From NCBI RefSeq assembly GCF_016863255.1, contig NZ_BOON01000006.1, positions 124,001-188,000 on the forward strand: 64,000 nt of DNA, written 5' to 3'. Positions 15,577 through 25,462 of the stretch are shown one piece after another. Source of the stretch: Planosporangium mesophilum. Lineage in GTDB: Bacteria > Actinomycetota > Actinomycetes > Mycobacteriales > Micromonosporaceae. Both the position numbers and the translations under genes were made by a program. Position 1 is the stretch's first letter. Each line of letters opens with the position of its first letter. The notes under the pieces are model-generated. The model did not search any database and was not told the origin of the DNA. It saw only the letters and a list, made by a program, of their open reading frames with translations.

Positions 15577-16077
15577 TCAGGAGGAGGGCCGGGGCTCCGG
15601 GAAGCTCGGCTGCTCCGGGCCGGCGAACTCCTTCTTGGGCACCATGACCCGGCGCCGGAACACGCAGACCAGGGTGCCGTCCTGCTTGTAACCCCGGGTC
15701 TCCACGCTGACCACGCCGCGGTCGGGCTTCGAGCCGGACTCCCGCTTGTCGAGCACCGTCGTCTCGCCGTAGATGGTGTCTCCGTGGAACGTCGGGGCGA
15801 CGTGGCGCAGCGACTCGACCTCGAGGTTGGCGATCGCCTTGCCCGACACGTCCGGAACCGACATGCCCAGCAGGATCGAGTAGATGTAGTTGCCGACGAC
15901 CACGTTGCGCTTGAAATGGGTCGACGTCTCGGCATAGTGGGCGTCGATGTGCAACGGGTGGTGGTTCATCGTCAACAGGCAGAACAGGTGGTCGTCGTAC
16001 TCGGTGACCGTCTTGCCGGGCCAGTGCCGGTAGACCGCCCCGACCTCGAACTCCTCGAAGTACCGACCGAACTGCAT
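15577..16077 (-). CDS. MaoC-family dehydratase, candidate mesaconyl-CoA hydratase
   Basis: 166-residue hot-dog fold hydratase that adds or removes water on a CoA-bound enoyl substrate. Seen: 'YFEEFEVGAVYRHWPGKTVT', 'NHHPLHIDAHYAE' with the catalytic D/H motif, 'GNYIYSILLGMSVPDVSGKA'. I associate this family with the Streptomyces cluster around ccr-meaA that also holds a CitE-like lyase and an acyl-CoA dehydrogenase; both partners occur in this window but far away. Function as mesaconyl-CoA hydratase is inference. A TTACC-N4-GGTAA palindrome lies 31 bp upstream. Confidence 0.85.
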   Translation of the reverse strand: MQFGRYFEEFEVGAVYRHWPGKTVTEYDDHLFCLLTMNHHPLHIDAHYAETSTHFKRNVVVGNYIYSILLGMSVPDVSGKAIANLEVESLRHVAPTFHGDTIYGETTVLDKRESGSKPDRGVVSVETRGYKQDGTLVCVFRRRVMVPKKEFAGPEQPSFPEPRPSS

Positions 16078-16108: not shown

Positions 16109-16122
16109 TTACCGGTTGGTAA
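16109..16122. promoter_or_regulatory. TTACC-N4-GGTAA operator before maoC gene
   Basis: TTACCGGTTGGTAA, perfect 5-bp arms around a 4-base centre, 31 bp before the MaoC start codon. The same arms recur at 25449 and, diverged, at 22271. A TetR-family repressor site is the likeliest reading. Confidence 0.55.
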
Positions 16123-16250
16123 CCAAGCTGGACACGGAGACGTCGACCACAGAAAGCAATGAACGGCGGGGCCCTCCCCGGCGCCCGCCGCCCACGCTCT
16201 GTTGCGGAGAATTGTGCCGGGGCCCGCAACGCTGCGTACAGAGACGGGCG

Positions 16251-16270
16251 TCACAGTTACCAAATTGTGA
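16251..16270. promoter_or_regulatory. TCACA-N10-TGTGA inverted repeat
   Basis: Arms TCACA/TGTGA with further matching TT/AA inside, 48 bp before the GTG at 16319 in the 240-bp gap between the divergent MaoC and secreted-protein genes. It may be an operator; the regulator is unknown. Confidence 0.28.
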
Positions 16271-16318
16271 GCCTAACGGGGCTGGTACCAGGAATTCACG
16301 GAAAGTCGATTACAAGAA

Positions 16319-16795
16319 GTGAATGACAAATCACTACGGGGCGTAAGCAAGAGCGGTGACGCCGAATCACTCACCCGGCGTGGTCGCCTGATACGAGTCA
16401 CGGCCACGCTGATCGGTTGCGCACTGCTGCTGACCGGCACGGCCGTCGGTGACGACGACGACTTTCCCTTCGGCCCGTTCCGGGTCTACGCGAGCGCCGA
16501 CCCGCCCGGCGCCCCGGTCGCCGATACCCGCGTCGAGGCGGTCGACACGGCCGGCCTGCGACGGATCCTGACCCAGGCCGACACGGGCATCCGCCGCGCC
16601 GAGATCGAGGGCCAGCTCGACCGCTTCACCGCCGAGCCGTCCCGGCTGTCCACCGTGGCCACGGCGTACCAGCGGCGAAACCCGGGCGCCGCGCCGCTGC
16701 GGGAGGTCAGCGTCGTGGTGCGCTGGCACGAGGTACGCGACGGCCGCCCGACCGGGCGGTCCTGGGACGCCACGACCGTGGTGTGGCGCCCATGA
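16319..16795 (+). CDS. Secreted or membrane-anchored hypothetical protein
   Basis: 158 residues with a basic N terminus and one helix at about 25-44 ('LIRVTATLIGCALLLTGTAV'), a signal peptide or anchor, then a polar domain ending 'VSVVVRWHEVRDGRPTGRSW'. Not a family I recognise. The helix has a Cys but not in a lipobox. GTG 16319 is used; ribosome site is weak. The stop overlaps the start of the HTTM gene (ATGA), so the two are coupled and probably act together at the membrane. Confidence 0.68.
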   Translation: MNDKSLRGVSKSGDAESLTRRGRLIRVTATLIGCALLLTGTAVGDDDDFPFGPFRVYASADPPGAPVADTRVEAVDTAGLRRILTQADTGIRRAEIEGQLDRFTAEPSRLSTVATAYQRRNPGAAPLREVSVVVRWHEVRDGRPTGRSWDATTVVWRP

Positions 16796-17724
16796 CGAGG
16801 CTGGCCGGCTGGCTCACCGAGCCGGTACCGCGCGGGCGGGTCGCCTGGATGCGCACGCTGGTGTACCTGTTCGTCGCGGCCGATCTCGTCTTCTTCACCC
16901 CGTGGGTACGTCACCACGGCGAGCTGCCGGGCTCGTTCTACCGCCCGCTGCTCATCGGCCGGCTGCTGCACCTGCCGGCCCCCACCCCCAGCCTGGTCGA
17001 CACGGTGTTCTGGCTGCTCCTGGTGGCCGCGTGCGCGGCAGCAACCGGCCGGGCACCCCGCGCGCTCGGCTGGACCGTCGCCATCCTGTACCTCGAATGG
17101 ATGGTCGTGGCGATGAGCTACGGCAAGGTCGACCACGACCGGTTCGCGCTGCTGGTGGCGCTGGTCGCGCTGCCGACCGCCGGTCCGGCCCGGCACCGCG
17201 ACACGATCCCCACCGAGCGTGGCGGCTGGGCACTGCGCGTGACGCAGCTCGCCGCCGTCGCCACCTACTTCCTGGCGGCCTGGGCGAAGCTGCGCTTCGG
17301 CGGCCTCGACTGGCTCACCGGCGCCACCCTGAACTGGGCGCTGCTGCGCCGCGGCACCGCGCTGGGTCAGGCGCTCACCCGCGTACCCGAACTGCTGGTC
17401 GCGGCGCAGTTCGGCATCATGGCGTTCGAGCTGCTCAGCCCGCTGGTCTTCGTACTGCCCCGGCGGGGGCGCCAGCTCGCGGTCGCCTTCTTCTACGCGT
17501 TCCACCTCGGCGTGTTCGCCACGATCACGATCTCGTTCATCCCGCAGCAGGTGGCGCTGGCGAGCTTCCTACCGCTGGAACGCCTGGGCGCATTTCTGCT
17601 CCCCCGTCGATCCAGGAGCAGTGGCGGGGCGAACCGGACAGACGAGGCGCCATATCTCCTAGATCGGCGCGGTTGGGGTCTCGGGAGGCGGCGGCAGCGC
17701 GCAGGCGGCGGTGCCGCCGGGTAG
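16792..17724 (+). CDS. HTTM-domain membrane protein
   Basis: 310-residue multi-pass membrane protein with an HTTM fold (the membrane part of vitamin K-dependent gamma-carboxylase relatives). Seen: 'WMRTLVYLFVAADLVFFTPW', 'FWLLLVAACAAATGR', 'YLEWMVVAMSYGKVDHDRFA', 'LAAWAKLRFGGLDWLTG', and 'YAFHLGVFATITISFIP'. No carboxylase half is present. HTTM proteins are often next to or fused with DCC thiol proteins, and here a DCC gene lies tail-to-tail, the two coding ends overlapping by 66 bp. ATG 16792 overlaps the upstream stop. Confidence 0.85.
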   Translation: MTRLAGWLTEPVPRGRVAWMRTLVYLFVAADLVFFTPWVRHHGELPGSFYRPLLIGRLLHLPAPTPSLVDTVFWLLLVAACAAATGRAPRALGWTVAILYLEWMVVAMSYGKVDHDRFALLVALVALPTAGPARHRDTIPTERGGWALRVTQLAAVATYFLAAWAKLRFGGLDWLTGATLNWALLRRGTALGQALTRVPELLVAAQFGIMAFELLSPLVFVLPRRGRQLAVAFFYAFHLGVFATITISFIPQQVALASFLPLERLGAFLLPRRSRSSGGANRTDEAPYLLDRRGWGLGRRRQRAGGGAAG

Positions 17725-18066
17725 CCGGTGGCGGTTACGCGCCACCCACCGGTACGCGGGCCAGGCCAGCGCGAGCGCGGGCCGGGTACCGAGAACCGCG
17801 CCGGCCGGGCGCCACACCAGATGACCGCTCAGCCCGCGGGCCTGCCGCAGCAGCCGCGCGATGGCCACCGGCCCGGCCGCGACCTCGCCGTCGACGCCCA
17901 CCCACTGCACGGCGTCCGCGCACCGGTCGGCGGTCAGCCCGAGGGCGGCGAGATCGAGCCGCTGCCAGGCCTTGAGCCGCGCCGGCGTGGAGATACGGCG
18001 CTCGATGAAGCGCACGCACGACGAGCAGAATGCGCAGTCACCGTCGTAGACGAGGGTCGGTTCCAC
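17659..18066 (-). CDS. DCC-family thiol-disulfide oxidoreductase
   Basis: 135-residue DUF393/DCC protein (YuxK-like), thioredoxin-fold redox protein. Signature 'LVYDGDCAFCSSCVRFIERR' with DGDCxFC at residues about 8-14 and a second Cys pair partner. Then the family 'WQRLDLAALG' and 'PAYRWVARNRHRLPGG' ends. GTG 18066 has CACAAT 6 nt upstream, so possibly leaderless. Tail-to-tail overlap with the HTTM gene covers the last 22 codons. Confidence 0.9.
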   Translation of the reverse strand: MEPTLVYDGDCAFCSSCVRFIERRISTPARLKAWQRLDLAALGLTADRCADAVQWVGVDGEVAAGPVAIARLLRQARGLSGHLVWRPAGAVLGTRPALALAWPAYRWVARNRHRLPGGTAACALPPPPETPTAPI

Positions 18067-18072
18067 CGGTCA

Positions 18073-18078
18073 ATTGTG
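18073..18078 (-). promoter_or_regulatory. Possible -10 hexamer of leaderless transcript
   Basis: CACAAT on the minus strand, 6 nt before the GTG at 18066. Second A and last T match the actinobacterial -10; the first base does not. Confidence 0.33.
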
Positions 18079-18198
18079 CGGGGTTGAGCCGGTCGGCTTC
18101 GGGTACGCCAGGGGTGACAGTCAGCACGTTGTGGAATTGCACCGACCGCCCGGTCGTTGCCCAAGAACGTAGCCGCAGAACGTAGAACGGAGACGAGA

Positions 18199-18561
18199 AT
18201 GGCGACCGTAGCGCTCACTGCTGAGAACTTCGCCGAGAAGGTGTCCGGCGAGGGCATCGTGCTCGTTGACTTCTGGGCCAGCTGGTGCGGACCCTGCCGT
18301 TCGTTCGCGCCGGTGTACGAGCGGGCCTCGGAGAACCACCCGGACATCACCTTCGCGAAGGTCGATACCGAAGCCGAGCAGCTGCTCGCGAGCGAATTCG
18401 AGATCCGCTCGATTCCCACGGTGATGGCGATCCGCGACGGCATCATGGTCTTCGCGCAGCCGGGCGCGCTGCCCGAGTCGGCGCTGGAGTCCCTCATCAG
18501 CCAGATCCGCGCCCTCGACATGGACGAGGTGCGCCGCCAGGTCGCGGCCAACGCGTCCTGA
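18199..18561 (+). CDS. Thioredoxin
   Basis: 120-residue thioredoxin that reduces protein disulfides. Seen: 'GIVLVDFWASWCGPCRSFAP' with the WCGPC active site at about 31-35 and the cis-proline 'IRSIPTVMAI'. C-terminal tail 'QIRALDMDEVRRQVAANAS' is typical of a group of actinobacterial thioredoxins near TrxA. ATG 18199 is taken, with ACGGAGACGAG just upstream as ribosome site. Confidence 0.95.
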   Translation: MATVALTAENFAEKVSGEGIVLVDFWASWCGPCRSFAPVYERASENHPDITFAKVDTEAEQLLASEFEIRSIPTVMAIRDGIMVFAQPGALPESALESLISQIRALDMDEVRRQVAANAS

Positions 18562-18636
18562 GCCCCGTACCCGGGTTCCGGCGCTTGAGTCCGGCACCCG
18601 CTGGACAGCAGGTCGAACGGATGTTCGAATAGGCGG

Positions 18637-19695
18637 ATGCGCTGGGACAACCTTTCGGTCAACGACGCCGACGGCGAACCCGCGCTGCCGATCCCGGTGG
18701 CCGGGGCCGTCACGCGCACCTTCGACACGCCCGAGTTCCGGGGCATGACGTTCTACGAGGTGCGGGCGAAGTCCATCATCAACCGGGTGCCCGGCGCCTC
18801 GCGGGTGCCGTTCGAGTGGACGCTCAACCCGTACCGGGGCTGCACTCATGCGTGTCGATACTGTTTCGCCCGCAACACGCACACGTACCTTGACCTCGAC
18901 GCCGGCCGGGACTTCGACACCCGGGTCGTGGTCAAGGTGAACGCCGGCGAACTGCTGCGCAAGGAGCTGGCGTCGCCGCGCTGGCGCGGCGAGCAGATCG
19001 CGATGGGCAGCAACGTCGACTGCTACCAGCGGGCCGAGGGACGGTACCGGCTGATGCGCGACATCCTGACCGCCCTGCGCGACTTCGCCAACCCGTTCTC
19101 GATCCTCACCAAGGGCACCCTGATCCTGCGCGACCTCGACCTCCTCAAGCAGGCCGCGGAGGTCACCGCCGTCGGGCTGTCGATGTCGGTCGGCTTCGTG
19201 GACGAGGCGCTGTGGCGCTCGGTCGAGCCGGGTACCCCGAGCCCGCGCCGCCGCCTGGACGCGGTCCGGCAACTGTCCGACGCGGGCTTCGCGGTCGGCG
19301 TACTGATGGCGCCGATCCTGCCGGGAATCACCGATACCGCCGAATCCATCGACGAGACGGTCCGCGCCATCGCCGCCGCCGGTGCGGCCAGCCTGGTCCC
19401 GCTCGGGCTGCACCTGCGGCCCGGTGCCCGGGAGTGGTACCTGTCCTGGCTGGCACGGGAGCGGCCGGACCTGCTGCCGCGCTACCGCGAGCTGTACCAC
19501 GACGGCGCCTACCTCGGCTCGGCGTACCAGCGGGAGTTGACCGCGCGGGTGCGGCAGGCCGCGCGCCGCCACGGTCTGCCCGCCGGCGGCACCAACACCG
19601 CCCGGCAGGTGCTGTCGAGCCCGCAGGAGGATCGGGTGCTGGCAGACCCGTCCGGCGTGAAGCCGCGGCCGGACGAGCAGTTGACCCTGCTGTAG
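18637..19695 (+). CDS. Rv2578c-family radical SAM protein
   Basis: 352-residue radical SAM enzyme of the Rv2578c/SplB-like group. Seen: the cluster motif 'RGCTHACRYCFARNTHTY' (CxxxCxxC) near residue 70, 'GSNVDCYQRAEGRYRLMRDI', 'PFSILTKGTLILRDLDLL', 'LMAPILPGITDTAESI'. In this family the substrate is unknown; spore photoproduct lyase is a distant relative that repairs DNA. It is a single gene between thioredoxin and a PH-like membrane protein, so a reductant link to thioredoxin is conceivable but not shown. Confidence 0.92.
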   Translation: MRWDNLSVNDADGEPALPIPVAGAVTRTFDTPEFRGMTFYEVRAKSIINRVPGASRVPFEWTLNPYRGCTHACRYCFARNTHTYLDLDAGRDFDTRVVVKVNAGELLRKELASPRWRGEQIAMGSNVDCYQRAEGRYRLMRDILTALRDFANPFSILTKGTLILRDLDLLKQAAEVTAVGLSMSVGFVDEALWRSVEPGTPSPRRRLDAVRQLSDAGFAVGVLMAPILPGITDTAESIDETVRAIAAAGAASLVPLGLHLRPGAREWYLSWLARERPDLLPRYRELYHDGAYLGSAYQRELTARVRQAARRHGLPAGGTNTARQVLSSPQEDRVLADPSGVKPRPDEQLTLL

Positions 19696-19706
19696 CGGCG
19701 CGCGCC

Positions 19707-19712
19707 TATCCT
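19707..19712 (+). promoter_or_regulatory. -10 hexamer of leaderless transcript
   Basis: TATCCT lies exactly 7 nt before the ATG at 19720 and no ribosome site is present, so the mRNA may begin at the start codon. Confidence 0.48.
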
Positions 19713-19719
19713 TGCGGCC

Positions 19720-20463
19720 ATGCCGCCCACCCCGGTCCCCCTGCGCCCGACCCGAGGCGAACTGGCCTGGCTGTTCGGGCCGTTGGTCGGCGCGCTGCTG
19801 AGCGTCGCCGGTGCGTACGTGGTCGACGGGTCCGGCGAGGTGCGGCAGTACGCGTTCCTGGCGGGCTGGGCCTTCTTCGCACTCGCCTTCCTGGGCACCG
19901 TGCGGGCACCGCGGCGGGGCGGCGCACCGGCGCCCGCGGCGTTTACCGTCACCCGACTGGCGGGGCGACCGGCGTTCGCCGCGCCACCCGCGTACCGGGT
20001 GATGTGTCCCCGGTTTGGTGGGCTCCTGGTGTTCCCGGTCATGGTGTGGGGGGCGAGCCCGGCGCTCGCGCCGCTCGCTGCGGTGGCGCTGGTCGGCGGG
20101 CTGCTCGCCGCCGTACGGCTGGCGCGCGGCGTGCCGGCGGTCGCGCTCACCCCGGAGGGGGTCGTGCGGGGCTACCCGGTGCGGCGCACCCTCGGCTGGG
20201 AGCAGGTCGGGCCGCCCGAGCTACGAAAGGCCGGGGTGCGGGCGGTCCTCGACGTCCGGGCCACCGGTCGCCGGAGCGCCTGGGCACGGCTGCCCGAGGT
20301 GACGACCGGCGTCAATCTGGTGTACCTGATGGATGCGGTGCGTCACTACGCCGACCAGCCGGAGCCGCGGTACGCCATCGGTACGGACGGCGAGCAGGAG
20401 CGGGTGTACGCCGAACTTCTGGCCCGGCGGCCCGATGCCGACGGACACGTCAGTCCACAGTAG
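19720..20463 (+). CDS. Membrane protein with PH-like domain
   Basis: 247 residues: two N-terminal helices ('LFGPLVGALLSVAGAYVV' and 'YAFLAGWAFFALAFLGTV'), a loop, two more ('FGGLLVFPVMVWGA' and 'PLAAVALVGGLLAAVRLA'), then a C-terminal domain with 'VALTPEGVVRGYPVRRTLGW' that resembles a low-molecular-weight PH-like domain. No catalytic motif. Likely a leaderless transcript. Confidence 0.7.
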   Translation: MPPTPVPLRPTRGELAWLFGPLVGALLSVAGAYVVDGSGEVRQYAFLAGWAFFALAFLGTVRAPRRGGAPAPAAFTVTRLAGRPAFAAPPAYRVMCPRFGGLLVFPVMVWGASPALAPLAAVALVGGLLAAVRLARGVPAVALTPEGVVRGYPVRRTLGWEQVGPPELRKAGVRAVLDVRATGRRSAWARLPEVTTGVNLVYLMDAVRHYADQPEPRYAIGTDGEQERVYAELLARRPDADGHVSPQ

Positions 20464-20491
20464 ATACTCGGCAACCCCTGGTGGACCGCGC

Positions 20492-20497
20492 TAACCT
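20492..20497 (+). promoter_or_regulatory. -10 hexamer of leaderless transcript
   Basis: TAACCT, 7 nt before the GTG at 20505; no Shine-Dalgarno in between. Confidence 0.48.
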
Positions 20498-20504
20498 TTC
20501 CCTG

Positions 20505-20921
20505 GTGAGAACGCCACGCGAGATACTCGAGGAGTCGGTCACCATCGCGGTGGTCGGCGCCTCCCGCAACCCCGGAAAAGCCGCGCACGAGGTGCCGGTC
20601 CAGATGCTGCGGCACGGTTGGCGGGTGATCCCGGTCAACCCCAGCATCAACGAACTCTGGGAACAGCCCAGCTACCCGGTGCTGGCCGAAATCCCCGAGC
20701 CGGTCGACCTGGTCAACATCTTCCGCCCGAGCGCCGACGCGGCGGAGATCGTACGGCAGGCCGTGGAGATCGGCGCCCGGGCGGTGTGGCTGCAGCTGGG
20801 GATCGTCTCGCCGGAGGCGCGCGAGATCGCCGAGCAGGCCGGCGTCGACTACGTCGAGGACTCGTGCATCGCCGTGGTCCGGGCGAGTTCCGGACTGACC
20901 CGCAACATCGAGAATTCCTGA
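20505..20921 (+). CDS. CoA-binding domain protein (YccU-like)
   Basis: 138-residue Rossmann-fold CoA-binding protein. Seen: 'SVTIAVVGASRNPGKAAHEV' with the GASxxPxK nucleotide loop, 'RVIPVNPSINELWEQPSYPV', 'PVDLVNIFRPSADAAEIVRQ', and the terminal 'EDSCIAVV'. The fold matches the first domain of succinyl-CoA synthetase alpha; stand-alone members such as YccU have no proven reaction. The GTG at 20505 is chosen from the leaderless promoter layout and homologue length. Confidence 0.9.
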   Translation: MRTPREILEESVTIAVVGASRNPGKAAHEVPVQMLRHGWRVIPVNPSINELWEQPSYPVLAEIPEPVDLVNIFRPSADAAEIVRQAVEIGARAVWLQLGIVSPEAREIAEQAGVDYVEDSCIAVVRASSGLTRNIENS

Positions 20922-20932
20922 TCGTGACCGAT

Positions 20933-21003
20933 GGTCGTCACAACGTCCCGAAAATCGGGGCCTCAGCACCCTTGGCTTCAAATTCCGGGACGTTGTGACG
21001 ACC
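20933..21003. repeat. 18-bp perfect inverted repeat in convergent gap
   Basis: Arms 20933-20950 and 20986-21003 are exact reverse complements, reading GGTCGTCACAACGTCCCG on the left, around a 35-nt loop. It fills the gap between the CoA-binding gene (stop 20921) and acyl-CoA dehydrogenase (stop 21014). Probably a two-way terminator, but arms this long and a core shared with 15550 and 45650 suggest a dispersed repeat element. Confidence 0.8.
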
Positions 21004-21013
21004 TAGGGACGCT

Positions 21014-22216
21014 TCAGCGCTGCTTGTACTCCTTGAGCAGGCCACGCGAGATGATGGTCTTCTGGATCTCGGACGTACCCTCGCCGATGAGCAGGAACGG
21101 CGCCTCGCGCATCAGCCGCTCGATCTCGTACTCCTTGGAGTAGCCGTAACCGCCGTGGATGCGGAACGCCTCCTGGACCACCTCGGCGCAGTACTCGCTG
21201 GCCAGCAGCTTCGCCATGCCCGCCTCGACGTCGTTGCGCTTGCCGGCGTCCTTGAGCCGGGCGGCGTTGACCATGAGGGCGTGCGCCGCCTCGATCTTCG
21301 TACCCATCTCGGCGAGCTTGAACGCGATCGCCTGGTGGCCGGAGAGCGGCTTGCCGAACGTCTGCCGCTGCTGCGCGTACGCGACGGCGAGTTCGAAGGC
21401 CCGGATCGAGATGCCGCAGGCGCGGGCGGCCACGTTGACCCGGCCGACCTCGATGCCGTCCATCATCTGGTAGAAGCCGCGGCCCAGGCCGGCGTCGACG
21501 CCGCCGAGGACGGCGGTCTCCGGCACGACATGGCCGTCGAGGACCATCTCGGTCGTCTCGACGCCCTTGTACCCCATCTTCTCGATCTTGCCGGGAATGG
21601 TGAGGCCGGGAGCCGTCTCGCCGAAGCCGGGCTCCTTCTCCACCAGGAAGGTCGTCATGTTGCCGTACACGGTGTCGGCGCCGAGGTCGGTCTTGACCAG
21701 GGTCGCGACCACTGAAGACTGCCCGCCGTTGGTCAGCCACATCTTCTGGCCGTCGATGGTGAACCGGTCACCATCGCGGACGGCCTTGGTACGGATCGCG
21801 GAGACGTCCGAGCCGCAGCCGGGCTCCGACATCGAGAAGGCGCCACGGACGCTGCCCTCGGCCATCTTCGGCAGGAAGTACTTCTTCTGCTCCGGCGAGC
21901 CGTGCTGGCTGATGAGGTACGCGACGATGAAGTGGGTGTTGATGATGCCGGAGATCGACATCCAGCCGCGCGACAGCTCCTCCACGACCAGCGCGTACGT
22001 GAGCAGCGACTCCCCCAGCCCGCCGTACTCCTCGTCGATCGTGATGCCGAACAGGCCCATCTCGCGCATCCCGTCGACGATGTCGGCCGGGTACTCGTCG
22101 GCGTGCTCCAGCCGCTGCGCGTGCGGGATGATCTCCTTGTCCACGAACTCCCGGACGGTTTCCAGGATCGACTGCTGAACGTCGGTCAGGCCGGGCGTCT
22201 GGGCGAGGCGTGCCAT
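21014..22216 (-). CDS. Acyl-CoA dehydrogenase
   Basis: 400-residue FAD-dependent acyl-CoA dehydrogenase that desaturates an acyl-CoA thioester between C2 and C3. Seen: 'FSMSEPGCGSDVSAIRTKA' (FAD/substrate), 'KMWLTNGGQSSVVATLVKTD', 'IEVGRVNVAARACGISIRA', 'RQTFGKPLSGHQAIAFKLAE', and C-terminal 'LLIGEGTSEIQKTIISR' with the catalytic Glu of the GEGTxEIQ motif. Substrate unknown; by resemblance to the Streptomyces gene near ccr it could be methylsuccinyl-CoA dehydrogenase, an inference. A TTACT-N4-AGTAT palindrome lies 54 bp upstream of the start. Confidence 0.94.
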   Translation of the reverse strand: MARLAQTPGLTDVQQSILETVREFVDKEIIPHAQRLEHADEYPADIVDGMREMGLFGITIDEEYGGLGESLLTYALVVEELSRGWMSISGIINTHFIVAYLISQHGSPEQKKYFLPKMAEGSVRGAFSMSEPGCGSDVSAIRTKAVRDGDRFTIDGQKMWLTNGGQSSVVATLVKTDLGADTVYGNMTTFLVEKEPGFGETAPGLTIPGKIEKMGYKGVETTEMVLDGHVVPETAVLGGVDAGLGRGFYQMMDGIEVGRVNVAARACGISIRAFELAVAYAQQRQTFGKPLSGHQAIAFKLAEMGTKIEAAHALMVNAARLKDAGKRNDVEAGMAKLLASEYCAEVVQEAFRIHGGYGYSKEYEIERLMREAPFLLIGEGTSEIQKTIISRGLLKEYKQR

Positions 22217-22270
22217 GGTGACCCTCCAGGGCTATGGGGGAACGTGGCGGATATTTGAACGCAGATTAAG

Positions 22271-22284
22271 TTACTGACGAGTAT
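22271..22284. promoter_or_regulatory. TTACT-N4-AGTAT operator before acyl-CoA dehydrogenase
   Basis: TTACTGACGAGTAT, arms match at four of five positions, 54 bp upstream of the acyl-CoA dehydrogenase start. It keeps the 5-4-5 spacing of the sites at 16109 and 25449. Confidence 0.42.
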
Positions 22285-22354
22285 CATGCGACCGCAGCTG
22301 TTGTGAATACAGTCACCGCAGAACACCGCCATCCGCAATGGTGCACCCGACGGT

Positions 22355-22360
22355 TACGGT
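22355..22360 (+). promoter_or_regulatory. -10 hexamer of leaderless transcript
   Basis: TACGGT, 6 nt before the GTG at 22367. Confidence 0.42.
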
Positions 22361-22366
22361 TGAGCC

Positions 22367-22732
22367 GTGGCTTCGATGTACGACGATGAACCGACCGAAC
22401 CGTACGGCCCCACCCGGCCGCTCGGTCCGGCGGAGCCGCCCACCCAGATCGACCCGTACCACCTCGGGTACGCGCCGGCCGGGCACGCGCCGCCGACGGC
22501 ACGCCCGACCAACACGATGGCCATTCTCTCGCTGGTCTTCGCGTTCGTGTTCTGGCCGCTGGCGATCGTCTTCGGCCACGTCGGAAAGCGCCAGATCGCC
22601 CGTACCGGTGAGGCCGGCGGCGGGCTCGCGACCGCGGGCCTGATCATGGGGTACCTGTGGCTCGCGGTCAGCGTGTGCCTGTGCTGCGGCGCCCTCAACC
22701 TGATCCCGAACACCAACGGGTCCGGCAACTAG
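22367..22732 (+). CDS. DUF4190 membrane protein
   Basis: 121 residues: a proline-rich N terminus of about 50 then two helices in the DUF4190 pattern, '[20 protein letters not shown]' and '[20 protein letters not shown]' joined by '[18 protein letters not shown]'. The family has no known function. GTG 22367 or ATG 22376 could start it; the TANNNT spacing favours the GTG. The stop codon overlaps the convergent SDR stop. A longer paralogue lies at 23829. Confidence 0.85.
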
Positions 22733-23514
22733 CGGTACTGGGCCTCCTGCACGCTGTTGCCGCCGTCGACGATGAGCATCTGACCGGTGATGTACGACGC
22801 CGACGGCGAGCACAGGAACGCGATCGTGGCCGCCACCTCGTCGGGGGTGCCCGGCCGCCCCATCGGGGTGCCGTACCCCTGCTTGAGCTCCACAAGCGTG
22901 GACGCTCCGGTGTGGATGATGCCGGGCGCCACCGCGTTGACCGTGATGCCGTCCGCCACCAGCTCCATGGCGAGTGCCCGGGTCAGGCCGACCACGCCGG
23001 CCTTGGCCGCCGCGTAGCCGGCCTCGGCCGGCAGCGCGTTCACCGGCCCGGCGGTGGCGGCCAGGTTGACGATGCGCCCCCAGCCGTGTTCCGCCATCCC
23101 GCCGACGAACGCGCGGCTGACCAGGAAAGCGGTGCTGAGGTTGCGGTCGATCTCCGCGCGCCACTCGTCGTAGCTGAGCTGGGCCACCGGCCGGAGCACC
23201 TCGGGGCTGGCCTTGCTGGCGAGGCCGGCGTTGTTGACGACGATGTCGACGCCGCCCAACTGGTCACTGATCGCGTCGGCGAGCGCCCCCACCTCGGCCT
23301 CCACGGTGAGGTCGGCGACGAAGCCGGTGACGCCCAGCTCGGTCGCCCGCTCGTGGATGCGGCGGGTGGTGGACACGATCGCCACGATGGCGCCGAGCGC
23401 GCGCAGCCTCCGCGCGGTCGCGTAGCCGATCCCGTCCGGGCTGCCGGCCCCGGTGACCAGTGCCACCTTGCCGTCGAGCCGGTCGCCGGCGAGCGGGGAG
23501 AACTGCTCGGGCAT
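22729..23514 (-). CDS. Short-chain dehydrogenase/reductase (FabG-like)
   Basis: 261-residue classical SDR oxidoreductase using NAD(P)H. Seen: '[20 protein letters not shown]' cofactor loop (with a two-residue insert relative to TGxxxGIG), 'DIVVNNAG', and the catalytic 'YAAAKAG' with Tyr/Lys; the typical catalytic Ser position reads 'NLAATAG', Ala instead of Ser, so activity is uncertain. C terminus '[12 protein letters not shown]' is the FabG end. ATG 23514 gives a normal length; a further in-frame start at 23646 would add a 44-residue basic leader. Role unknown. Confidence 0.87.
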
Positions 23515-23828
23515 GGTCGACTCGTCGTCGGGCTGCTCGCCGCTCGGGACCGCCCGGAGGGTACGCCGAGCCTGCCCCGGCCTGCTCACGTCGCGCCGGC
23601 CGCTCTTCGCGCCGGCCGCGACGCCACGTCGCGAATCAGGTGCCATGCAGCGATCCTGCCCGTTAGGAGGGGGGCGGGCAACGACAACGCGAATGTTGCG
23701 CGGACGGATTGGCCGTACCGGGGGACAGCCTGAGCGTGCTCTCTGCCGCTACCCTGTCGAAGCCCGCCGTCACCGACGCCGGGCCGCGGCCGCGCGCCGC
23801 GCCTTTGTGAGCGTACGGAGCAAACCAG
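23515..23828. other. 314-bp divergent intergenic region
   Basis: Between the SDR and DUF4190 starts. The SDR reading frame stays open to 23646, so part may be coding if the gene starts earlier. Towards 23829 there is an ACGGAGC ribosome site, and a TACCCT hexamer near 23750 could be a promoter. I see no RNA gene or repeat. Confidence 0.4.
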
Positions 23829-24395
23829 ATGACACAGCCGCCGCAACAGCCGGACATTTGGTCGGACCCGACCCGGCCGCCGGCCGAGCAGCAGCAACCC
23901 CAGGCGCCGCAGCCGCCGCAGGGCCAGACGCCCGAGCAGCCGCAGCCGACTCAACCGCTCTACGCCGACCCGTACGGCGCCGCGCCCACCTCCGCGCCGG
24001 GGTACGCCGACCCGTACGGCGCCGCGCCGGGCTACGCCGCGCCGGGGTACGCCGTTCCGACGGGCACCCCGCAGAGCTACCCCGGCTACCCCGGGTACCC
24101 CGGGTACGGGTACGGGGCGCCGATGCCCGTATCCCCGCCCAACAACCAGATGGCGCTCGTGGCGATGATCCTGTCGCTGGTAGGCCTGGGCTGCGGTATC
24201 TGCGCCCCGGTCGGGGCGATCATGGGCCACATCGCGCGCCGCCAGATCCGTGAGCGCGGCGAGGGCGGCGACGGCATGGCGCTGGCCGGCATCATCGTCG
24301 GCTGGATCGTGACCGCGCTGTACCTGCTCTACTTCGGTTTCCTCATCATCATGATGATCATTGCTATCGGCAGTTCGTCCTCGACGACCTACTGA
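23829..24395 (+). CDS. DUF4190 protein with YGAP-rich tail
   Basis: 188 residues. The first 105 are low complexity, Gln/Pro then repeated 'YADPYGAAP' and 'YPGYPGYPGYGYG' units, probably disordered and cytosolic. Two DUF4190 helices follow, 'QMALVAMILSLVGLGCGIC' and 'LAGIIVGWIVTALYLLYFGF', joined by 'MGHIARRQIRERGEGG'. Paralogue of the gene at 22367. A GGAGC ribosome site precedes the ATG. A strong hairpin follows the stop. Confidence 0.85.
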   Translation: MTQPPQQPDIWSDPTRPPAEQQQPQAPQPPQGQTPEQPQPTQPLYADPYGAAPTSAPGYADPYGAAPGYAAPGYAVPTGTPQSYPGYPGYPGYGYGAPMPVSPPNNQMALVAMILSLVGLGCGICAPVGAIMGHIARRQIRERGEGGDGMALAGIIVGWIVTALYLLYFGFLIIMMIIAIGSSSSTTY

Positions 24396-24403
24396 GAAGA
24401 CAC

Positions 24404-24451
24404 CGAAACGACGAACGCCCGCCGGGGACCCGGTGGGCGTTCGTCGTTTCG
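24404..24451. terminator. Bidirectional hairpin terminator
   Basis: Perfect 17-bp stem (24404-24420 with 24435-24451) around a 14-nt loop, between the DUF4190 stop and the convergent CoA-lyase stop at 24460. AT-rich outer arm ends (CGAAACG/CGTTTCG) support two-way termination. Confidence 0.85.
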
Positions 24452-24459
24452 CGGTCCGG

Positions 24460-25419
24460 TCAGCCCTTGTCGGGGGGCGTGAACGAGCTGGTACGGGACA
24501 TGCCCGCGGCCCGGCCCTTGCCGGCGACGACGAGCGCCATCTTGCGCGACGCCTCGTCGATCATCTCGTCGCCGAGCATCACCGCGCCGAGCTTGCCGCC
24601 CTTCTCGGAGGTGTAGTACTCGTACGCGTCCAGGATCAGCTCGGCGTGGTCGTAGTCGGCCTGGCTCGGCGAGTACACCTCGTTGGCCGCGTCGATCTGG
24701 CCGGGGTGCAGGACCCACTTGCCGTCGAAGCCGAGCGCCGCCGACCGCTTCGCGACCTCGGTGAATCCGTCGACGTCGCGGATCTGCAGGAACGGCCCGT
24801 CGATCGCCTGCAGGTCGTGCATGCGGGCGGCCATCAGGATGCGCATCAGGATGTAGTGGTACGGGTCGGCCGGGTACTCCGGGATGAGCTGACCGACCAC
24901 CAGGGACTTCATGTTGATCGAGGCCATGAAGTCGGCGGGCCCGAAGATGATGGTCTCGACGCGGGGCGACGCGGCGGCGATCGCGTCCACGTTGACCAGG
25001 CCGGCCGCGTTCTCGATCTGCGCCTCGATGCCGATGCCGCCGACCGGCAGGCCGACCGTCTTCTCGATCTGGGTCAGCAGCATGTCCAGCCACTGCACCT
25101 GGGCGGCGTTCTGAACCTTGGGCAGCATGATCGCGTCGAGGTTGGCGCCAGCGCCCTCCACGACCTCGATCACGTCGCGGTACGTCCACGGCGTGGTGAG
25201 GTCGTTGACGCGTACCACCCGGACCTTGTCACCCCAGCCGCCGTCGTTGAGTGCGGCCACGATGTTCTTGCGCGCCTCCGGCTTGGCCAGCGGCGCCACC
25301 GCGTCCTCGATGTCGAGGAAGACCTGGTCGGCCGGCAGGCCCTGCGCCTTGCCGAGCATCTTTACACTCGAGCCGGGAACAGCCAAGCAGGACCGGCGCG
25401 GTCGTCCGAGAGCGCCCAT
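24460..25419 (-). CDS. HpcH/HpaI (CitE-like) CoA-ester lyase
   Basis: 319-residue CitE-like TIM-barrel lyase that splits malyl-CoA or beta-methylmalyl-CoA. Seen: 'RRSCLAVPGSSVKMLGKA' at the start, 'VFLDIEDAVAP' with metal-binding Glu/Asp, 'VRVNDLTTPWTYRD', 'IMLPKVQNAAQVQWLD', 'AQIENAAGLVNVDAI', and 'GFDGKWVLHPGQIDAANEVY'. ATG 25419 has AAGGAG 9 nt upstream. It fits the lyase step of the ethylmalonyl-CoA pathway next to a mesaconyl-CoA hydratase and methylsuccinyl-CoA dehydrogenase, but that assignment is inference. A TTACC-N4-GGTAA palindrome lies 29 bp upstream, shared with a divergent SDR gene. Confidence 0.92.
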   Translation of the reverse strand: MGALGRPRRSCLAVPGSSVKMLGKAQGLPADQVFLDIEDAVAPLAKPEARKNIVAALNDGGWGDKVRVVRVNDLTTPWTYRDVIEVVEGAGANLDAIMLPKVQNAAQVQWLDMLLTQIEKTVGLPVGGIGIEAQIENAAGLVNVDAIAAASPRVETIIFGPADFMASINMKSLVVGQLIPEYPADPYHYILMRILMAARMHDLQAIDGPFLQIRDVDGFTEVAKRSAALGFDGKWVLHPGQIDAANEVYSPSQADYDHAELILDAYEYYTSEKGGKLGAVMLGDEMIDEASRKMALVVAGKGRAAGMSRTSSFTPPDKG

Positions 25420-25448
25420 ACGAGGCTCCTTAGGAGTCGGTAAGTTGG

Positions 25449-25462
25449 TTACCCAACGGTAA
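25449..25462. promoter_or_regulatory. TTACC-N4-GGTAA operator in divergent gap
   Basis: TTACCCAACGGTAA, with the same perfect arms and spacing as 16109, inside a larger GGTTAC...GTAACC palindrome. It sits between the CoA-ester lyase and SDR starts and may control both. Confidence 0.58.

Follow-up and report, generated by a model that had tools for sequence, protein, structure and literature searches.

The window analysed here, a 64,000-nucleotide stretch of the Planosporangium mesophilum draft assembly GCF_016863255.1 (contig NZ_BOON01000006.1, hereafter C6, positions 124,001 to 188,000), carries three acyl-CoA genes that appear to belong to the ethylmalonyl-CoA (EMC) pathway, each preceded by a short palindrome that we interpret as an operator. 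In window coordinates these features are:

15577..16077, minus strand: MaoC-type hydratase, 166 aa, mesaconyl-CoA hydratase (Mch) candidate from Pfam, PDB and identity to Streptomyces
16109..16122: hydratase operator TTACCGGTTGGTAA, 31 bp upstream of the mesaconyl-CoA hydratase-like gene
21014..22216, minus strand: acyl-CoA dehydrogenase (acd), 400 aa, methylsuccinyl-CoA dehydrogenase candidate with Pfam acyl-CoA dehydrogenase domains
22271..22284: acd operator TTACTGACGAGTAT, on the gene strand ATACTCGTCAGTAA, 54 bp upstream of the acyl-CoA dehydrogenase
24460..25419, minus strand: CoA-ester lyase, 79–82% identical to the Streptomyces cluster gene
25430..25443: weaker second lyase copy (8/10 matches), 5 bp from the lyase operator and overlapping the likely ribosome-binding site
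25449..25462: lyase operator TTACCCAACGGTAA, 29 bp upstream of the CoA-ester lyase

By sequence, the three genes are orthologues of those that close the Streptomyces ccr-ecm-lyase-hydratase-dehydrogenase (EMC) cluster, with 69–83% identity. The hydratase matches roughly half of the Pfam profile PF19315 (Mesaconyl-CoA hydratase, 6.3e-21), has a beta-methylmalyl-CoA dehydratase as its second PDB match and is 77–83% identical to the Streptomyces cluster gene, and the best solved matches of the lyase are malyl-CoA/beta-methylmalyl-CoA lyases (5ugr, 240.8 bits; 4l9y, 203.9). The dehydrogenase is 69–74% identical to the last gene of the cluster; by PDB sequence it matches many acyl-CoA dehydrogenases, FadE3 best, and this match is therefore not diagnostic by itself. 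Synteny is the decisive point for the predicted identities: all 21 Streptomyces loci have the order ecm, lyase, hydratase, dehydrogenase, with ccr in front in the 20 that extend far enough to include it. The original prediction, which had placed these enzyme types in the neighborhood of Streptomyces ccr, agrees with this order, and the proteins were not best matched to unrelated pathways. The cluster has been named the emc operon (PMC4606968), and in S. ambofaciens the same gene set is followed by a TetR gene and a 3-hydroxybutyryl-CoA dehydrogenase gene (PMC5427115).

The genome of P. mesophilum also has predicted ccr and ecm genes, the former on contig C2 (620 bits, above the curated cut-off) and the latter, a B12 mutase with relatives 71–83% identical in 29 of 29 genomes, on contig C3. 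The EMC genes are spread over C2, C3 and C6, contigs that could be neighbors since the assembly is a draft.

The palindromes lie upstream of the minus-strand starts at 16077, 22216 and 25419, where they had been reported, with the hydratase and acd spacings as first given and that of the lyase 29 bp instead of 30 bp. They are real and far above chance, TTACYNNNNRGTAW occurring in the window at three places (five strand hits), where 100 shuffles give an expectation of 0.03. Over the 6.62-Mb draft genome TTACCN4GGTAA is found at seven places and TTACYNNNNRGTAA (TTACYN4RGTAA) at 19, and the corresponding backwards-read control patterns at none; one mismatch raises the count to 86 sites, against 31 for the backwards control. 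None of the 19 exact sites is inside a called gene, though called genes (from a simple, crude codon-usage caller) make up 87% of the stretches read; the motif is not as common within genes as upstream of them. The acd site had been taken for a diverged copy, but looks like a conserved form and not like decay, because the same ATACT...GTAA asymmetry marks the commonest acd site in other genera, namely Saccharothrix, Lentzea, Umezawaea and Geodermatophilus (ATACTCGCCGGTAA or ATACTCACCGGTAA).

Further sites anticipated by the original prediction are present at the other EMC genes. An exact site (C3:16284) lies 39 bp upstream of the ecm-like mutase; the ccr site, CTACTGGGCAGTAA (C2:252129), has one mismatch and is roughly 210 bp upstream of the gene start as called. 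Five EMC genes (ccr, ecm, lyase, hydratase and dehydrogenase) are fronted by the operator, which in two cases has one mismatch. Judged by gene annotation, the regulon is broader than the EMC pathway and takes in beta-oxidation-type, acyl-CoA ligase and electron transfer flavoprotein (ETF) genes, the sites of EMC and fatty-acid genes having both arms in common. The 19 exact sites fall into 17 intergenic regions, nine of which face acyl-CoA or fatty-acid genes:

In the window: hydratase; lyase
Outside the window: ETF-domain gene; enoyl-CoA hydratase; ecm-like mutase
AMP-binding acyl-CoA ligase; 618-aa acyl-CoA dehydrogenase (two sites)
Fe-S/CCG protein, which we take to be EtfD-like; divergent thiolase/FabG pair

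The regions with no clear link to fatty-acid genes are:

Aldehyde dehydrogenase/glutamate synthase; P450; S8 peptidase; AAA ATPase
GDSL lipase/hemerythrin; FMO/TetR; RraA/LigB; GH1/S15 peptidase (two sites)

Another seven sites end in AT. Three of them precede acyl-CoA genes, namely the dehydrogenase of the window, a second acyl-CoA dehydrogenase and an acyl-CoA thioesterase; a fourth (L033) falls within a called gene, and the remaining three (L042, L044 and L045) have no clear link. Separately, we note that the two exact sites between the GH1 glycosidase and the S15-type peptidase stand in tandem (L032:6645-6677), with no evident lipid link.

Conservation was scored as at least 9 of 10 matches between -120 and +25 of orthologous genes, or -350 and +60 for ccr, where 30 rows came from 29 genomes. 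The lyase loci compared are the best 80 of a longer list, 21 from Streptomyces and 59 from elsewhere. Rows with a match starting after residue 12 or a short region (L222 among them) were left out; 4 of the 80 acd loci and 36 of the 80 hydratase (maoC) loci were absent or left out. The scored sets exclude L229 (an ecm paralogue) and L254–L258 (second TetR hits), and L094 stood outside the genome searches. The acd site is conserved at 47 of 76 loci (47/55 outside Streptomyces), the ecm site at 21 of 28 orthologues, the ccr site in 25 of 30 rows, the lyase (citE) site at 19 of 80 loci (19/59 outside Streptomyces) and the hydratase site at 6 of 44 (6/23 outside Streptomyces). Permuted half-site controls (n = 59) averaged 0.5 to 1.1 per set, and the highest were mostly one swap away from the motif, YTACT scoring 26 for acd, 15 for ecm and 20 for ccr. 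Of the 84 sites in the 59 loci outside Streptomyces, 73 are in the short stretches immediately before the three genes, which make up 18,078 of the 1,118,522 bp covered (1.6%). The four spacer bases vary by lineage and the arms are kept, as expected of a putative binding site. Fourteen loci were inspected, from Geodermatophilus, Goekera, Saccharothrix, Lentzea, Umezawaea and one record titled Nocardia. In 13 of them sites precede the lyase, acd or both, and only one other site occurs, in L105; the Goekera locus L111 has no such site.

The best candidate for the regulator is a TetR gene that is probably orthologous to mycobacterial FdmR (Rv0238):

C17:227836-228465: FdmR-like TetR, with tandem 9/10 and 8/10 words in its own promoter

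A site before a TetR gene had also been predicted, and among the 42 TetR loci of the genome examined only this one reaches 9/10. The words sit between the TetR gene and a divergent SCP2 and acyl-CoA dehydrogenase pair, and relatives keep them (for example TTACCCATCAGTAA and TTACTCATTGGTAA in L174), 16 of 24 scoring at least 9/10 and six more 8/10. Identity to the best match in each of 19 genomes of the same order (f2) is 38–49% among the matches listed, and a tree, which warns of long branches, groups the protein with the f2 homologues apart from FasR-like proteins. Its best solved relative is 3f1b, followed by 6o6p and 6o6n, both of which we take to be FasR. The f2 homologue adjoins a GH3 gene in both L192 and L199, and in the former it also has a FabG-MaoC pair beside it; this is presumably the Rv0237-Rv0242c gene order, on which our naming of the f2 gene as Rv0238 rests. 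FdmR, given as Rv0238, is described as a repressor of fatty-acid degradation genes that responds to long-chain acyl-CoA (PMC12403877), with fadE5 among the genes it represses (PMC9262360). Rv0158, considered as the FdmR gene, was rejected on that assignment, and it has another motif (PMC10501769).

We interpret TTACY-N4-RGTAA as the operator of an acyl-CoA-responsive TetR of fatty-acid breakdown, likely read by the FdmR-like TetR on C17, with a probability of about 0.7. The TetR would occupy its own promoter and those of the beta-oxidation, ETF and five EMC genes. When long-chain acyl-CoA is lacking, the dimer would block these promoters; as fatty acids arrive, acyl-CoA would release it and both pathways would be switched on together, the EMC pathway assimilating the acetyl-CoA that beta-oxidation yields. 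Isocitrate lyase had no match in the P. mesophilum genome (13 of 30 genomes searched had one at E up to 0.001, 12 above the cut-off, some partial), and the EMC pathway is the only route of acetyl-CoA assimilation recognized in this genome from its predicted genes, so joint control with beta-oxidation would make sense. The idea of a broken-up operon under one repressor is supported in part: the operator is shared, but its scope is not restricted to the EMC genes, since beta-oxidation and ETF genes are included. As to the arrangement, a single operon may have been split, or dispersed genes may have been brought together later in Streptomyces. The binding protein, its repressing action and its ligand we infer. 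The EMC pathway builds cell carbon from acetate and from products of fat breakdown. It is generally induced by acetate (PMC4606968) and supplies extender units for polyketide antibiotics (PMC4606968, PMC5427115). We found no published operator or regulator of the actinobacterial pathway in the portions of the open-access literature consulted, and a named operator with a candidate regulator makes EMC control directly testable.

Several observations weigh against this reading. Streptomyces has no site of at least 9/10 at ccr (0/3), ecm (0/3) or any window-gene orthologue (0/21 each), the best words before ccr reaching only 6 to 8 of 10 in loci that include ccr and its upstream sequence, and an FdmR-like TetR is present there although the EMC cluster lacks the operator. 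The lyase and hydratase footprints are weak because control words equal or pass the true motif, ATCTY scoring 19 against 19 for the lyase and TTAYC 10 against 6 for the hydratase, whose operator has the weakest conservation footprint of all. At TetR promoters YTACT likewise exceeds the true motif (21 against 16), and these promoters therefore prefer CTACT-like arms. A clear fatty-acid link is missing in eight of the 17 site regions, an unrelated TetR (L041) is beside an exact site, and two 8/10 words lie upstream of a further TetR, L129. Moreover, the regulator is not present wherever the sites are. An FdmR match at 1e-30 is missing in 5 of 29 named genomes (Catenulispora, three Geodermatophilus and Goekera), all of which keep ccr sites of at least 9/10; of the four scored for ecm, Goekera, Catenulispora and one Geodermatophilus have words of 9/10 or 10/10 and a second Geodermatophilus one of 8/10, the third being L222. 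Catenulispora has a diverged member of the TetR group (L259); in the Geodermatophilaceae, co-occurrence of regulator and sites fails.

The same family lends weight to the possibility, which we nonetheless hold doubtful, that the FasR-like TetR (C66:18486, L130) or both paralogues read the sites, placing the EMC genes under a lipid-synthesis regulator. The TetR of these Geodermatophilaceae, where EMC sites are kept without an FdmR match, is 59–62% identical to L130, and a TTACCGGCGGGTCA-like element of 8/10 or 9/10 lies close before the start of the FasR-like gene in 7 of 7 cases (L260–L266). The DNA-binding region is alike in FdmR-like and FasR-like TetRs, and the DNA crystallized with Mycobacterium tuberculosis FasR contains TACT-GGCG-AGT, close to the present operator (PMC7382501). 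However, the promoter of L130 itself reaches only 7/10, the FdmR-like promoter carrying the motif instead, and those targets here that concern lipids appear to be degradation genes; Corynebacterium FasR also has a different operator (PMC10933834).

A dedicated EMC regulator with a near-identical motif, such that overlapping regulons of sister TetRs share one consensus, is in our estimate rather unlikely. Streptomyces does have its own TetR between the 3-hydroxyacyl-CoA dehydrogenase gene and ccr (see also PMC5427115), and in P. mesophilum the second TetR, L041, is beside an exact site (L041:5176-5189) between an FMO-like monooxygenase operon and the divergent TetR gene. Among the 42 TetR loci, however, the best counterpart of the Streptomyces ccr-linked TetR matches poorly (41% over 93 aa), the search for a TetR close to the window genes lists none in C6:124001-188000 (150 of 191 candidates scored), and EMC and fatty-acid sites do not differ in their arms. 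That the sites reflect chance or promoter AT-richness, as the eight regions lacking a clear fatty-acid link might suggest, is hardly credible given the counts (0 backwards-control sites versus 19) and conservation over several families with permuted-motif controls.

L041 was set aside as the reader, since it is not among the proteins of this genome that match the FdmR-like TetR at 1e-20; its exact site possibly belongs to a separate local regulator. We also observed an asymmetric variant of constant form, TTACYN4RGTTA, in 15 of 21 Streptomyces loci (e.g., L110:3189-3202). In the five loci with their layout examined it lies some 220–430 bp upstream of the start called for the 3-hydroxyacyl-CoA dehydrogenase gene, which there precedes the ccr-linked TetR.

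Among known systems, BkaR (Rv2506), whose regulon includes citE, MaoC and acyl-CoA dehydrogenase genes, was the reader first considered, CitE, MaoC and acyl-CoA dehydrogenase genes presumably clustering in the mycobacterial leucine region. The window lyase matches malyl-CoA lyases far better than chains named citE. BkaR is likewise a TetR controlling branched-chain acyl-CoA genes, but it was rejected since its operator, GTTANTN4ANTAAC, differs from the TTACYN4RGTAA/T of the window (PMC3920632). AccR of Streptomyces avermitilis is a TetR repressor of acyl-CoA genes and was rejected on similar grounds, its operator being GTTAA-N6-TTAAC and its listed targets not being EMC genes (PMC10933834). 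FasR (Rv3208) belongs to a paralogous TetR family and its DNA resembles the operator core, but it is an activator of fas-acpS, in lipid synthesis (PMC7382501). The FasR-like gene of P. mesophilum, moreover, has no site. CcrR of Methylobacterium, a genus of another phylum, is described as an activator. Like the regulator proposed here, it is a TetR regulator of an EMC gene (by a title cited in PMC4606968).

The mycobacterial FdmR regulon shares with P. mesophilum a probably orthologous TetR, an operator in the regulator's own promoter (here the 9/10 and 8/10 tandem) and degradation targets (here 9 of 17 regions), the long acyl-CoA dehydrogenase and the acyl-CoA ligase carrying the operator here. 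The FabG/thiolase pair, we assume, resembles Rv0242c-Rv0243. Unlike in that regulon, the operator here also fronts five EMC genes; to our knowledge mycobacteria lack the EMC pathway. The Streptomyces emc cluster has the same five enzymes, the window genes being 69–83% identical, but is contiguous with no 9/10 site before ccr (0/3 loci), whereas in P. mesophilum the genes are dispersed and carry the operator. We judge the odds about even that several actinobacterial families keep a dispersed EMC pathway together under a fatty-acid-degradation repressor, as one acyl-CoA-gated regulon in which beta-oxidation produces acetyl-CoA and the EMC pathway assimilates it, the pathway being clustered in Streptomyces and without the operator there. 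The two arrangements offer a natural case of cluster versus dispersed regulon for the same five enzymes.

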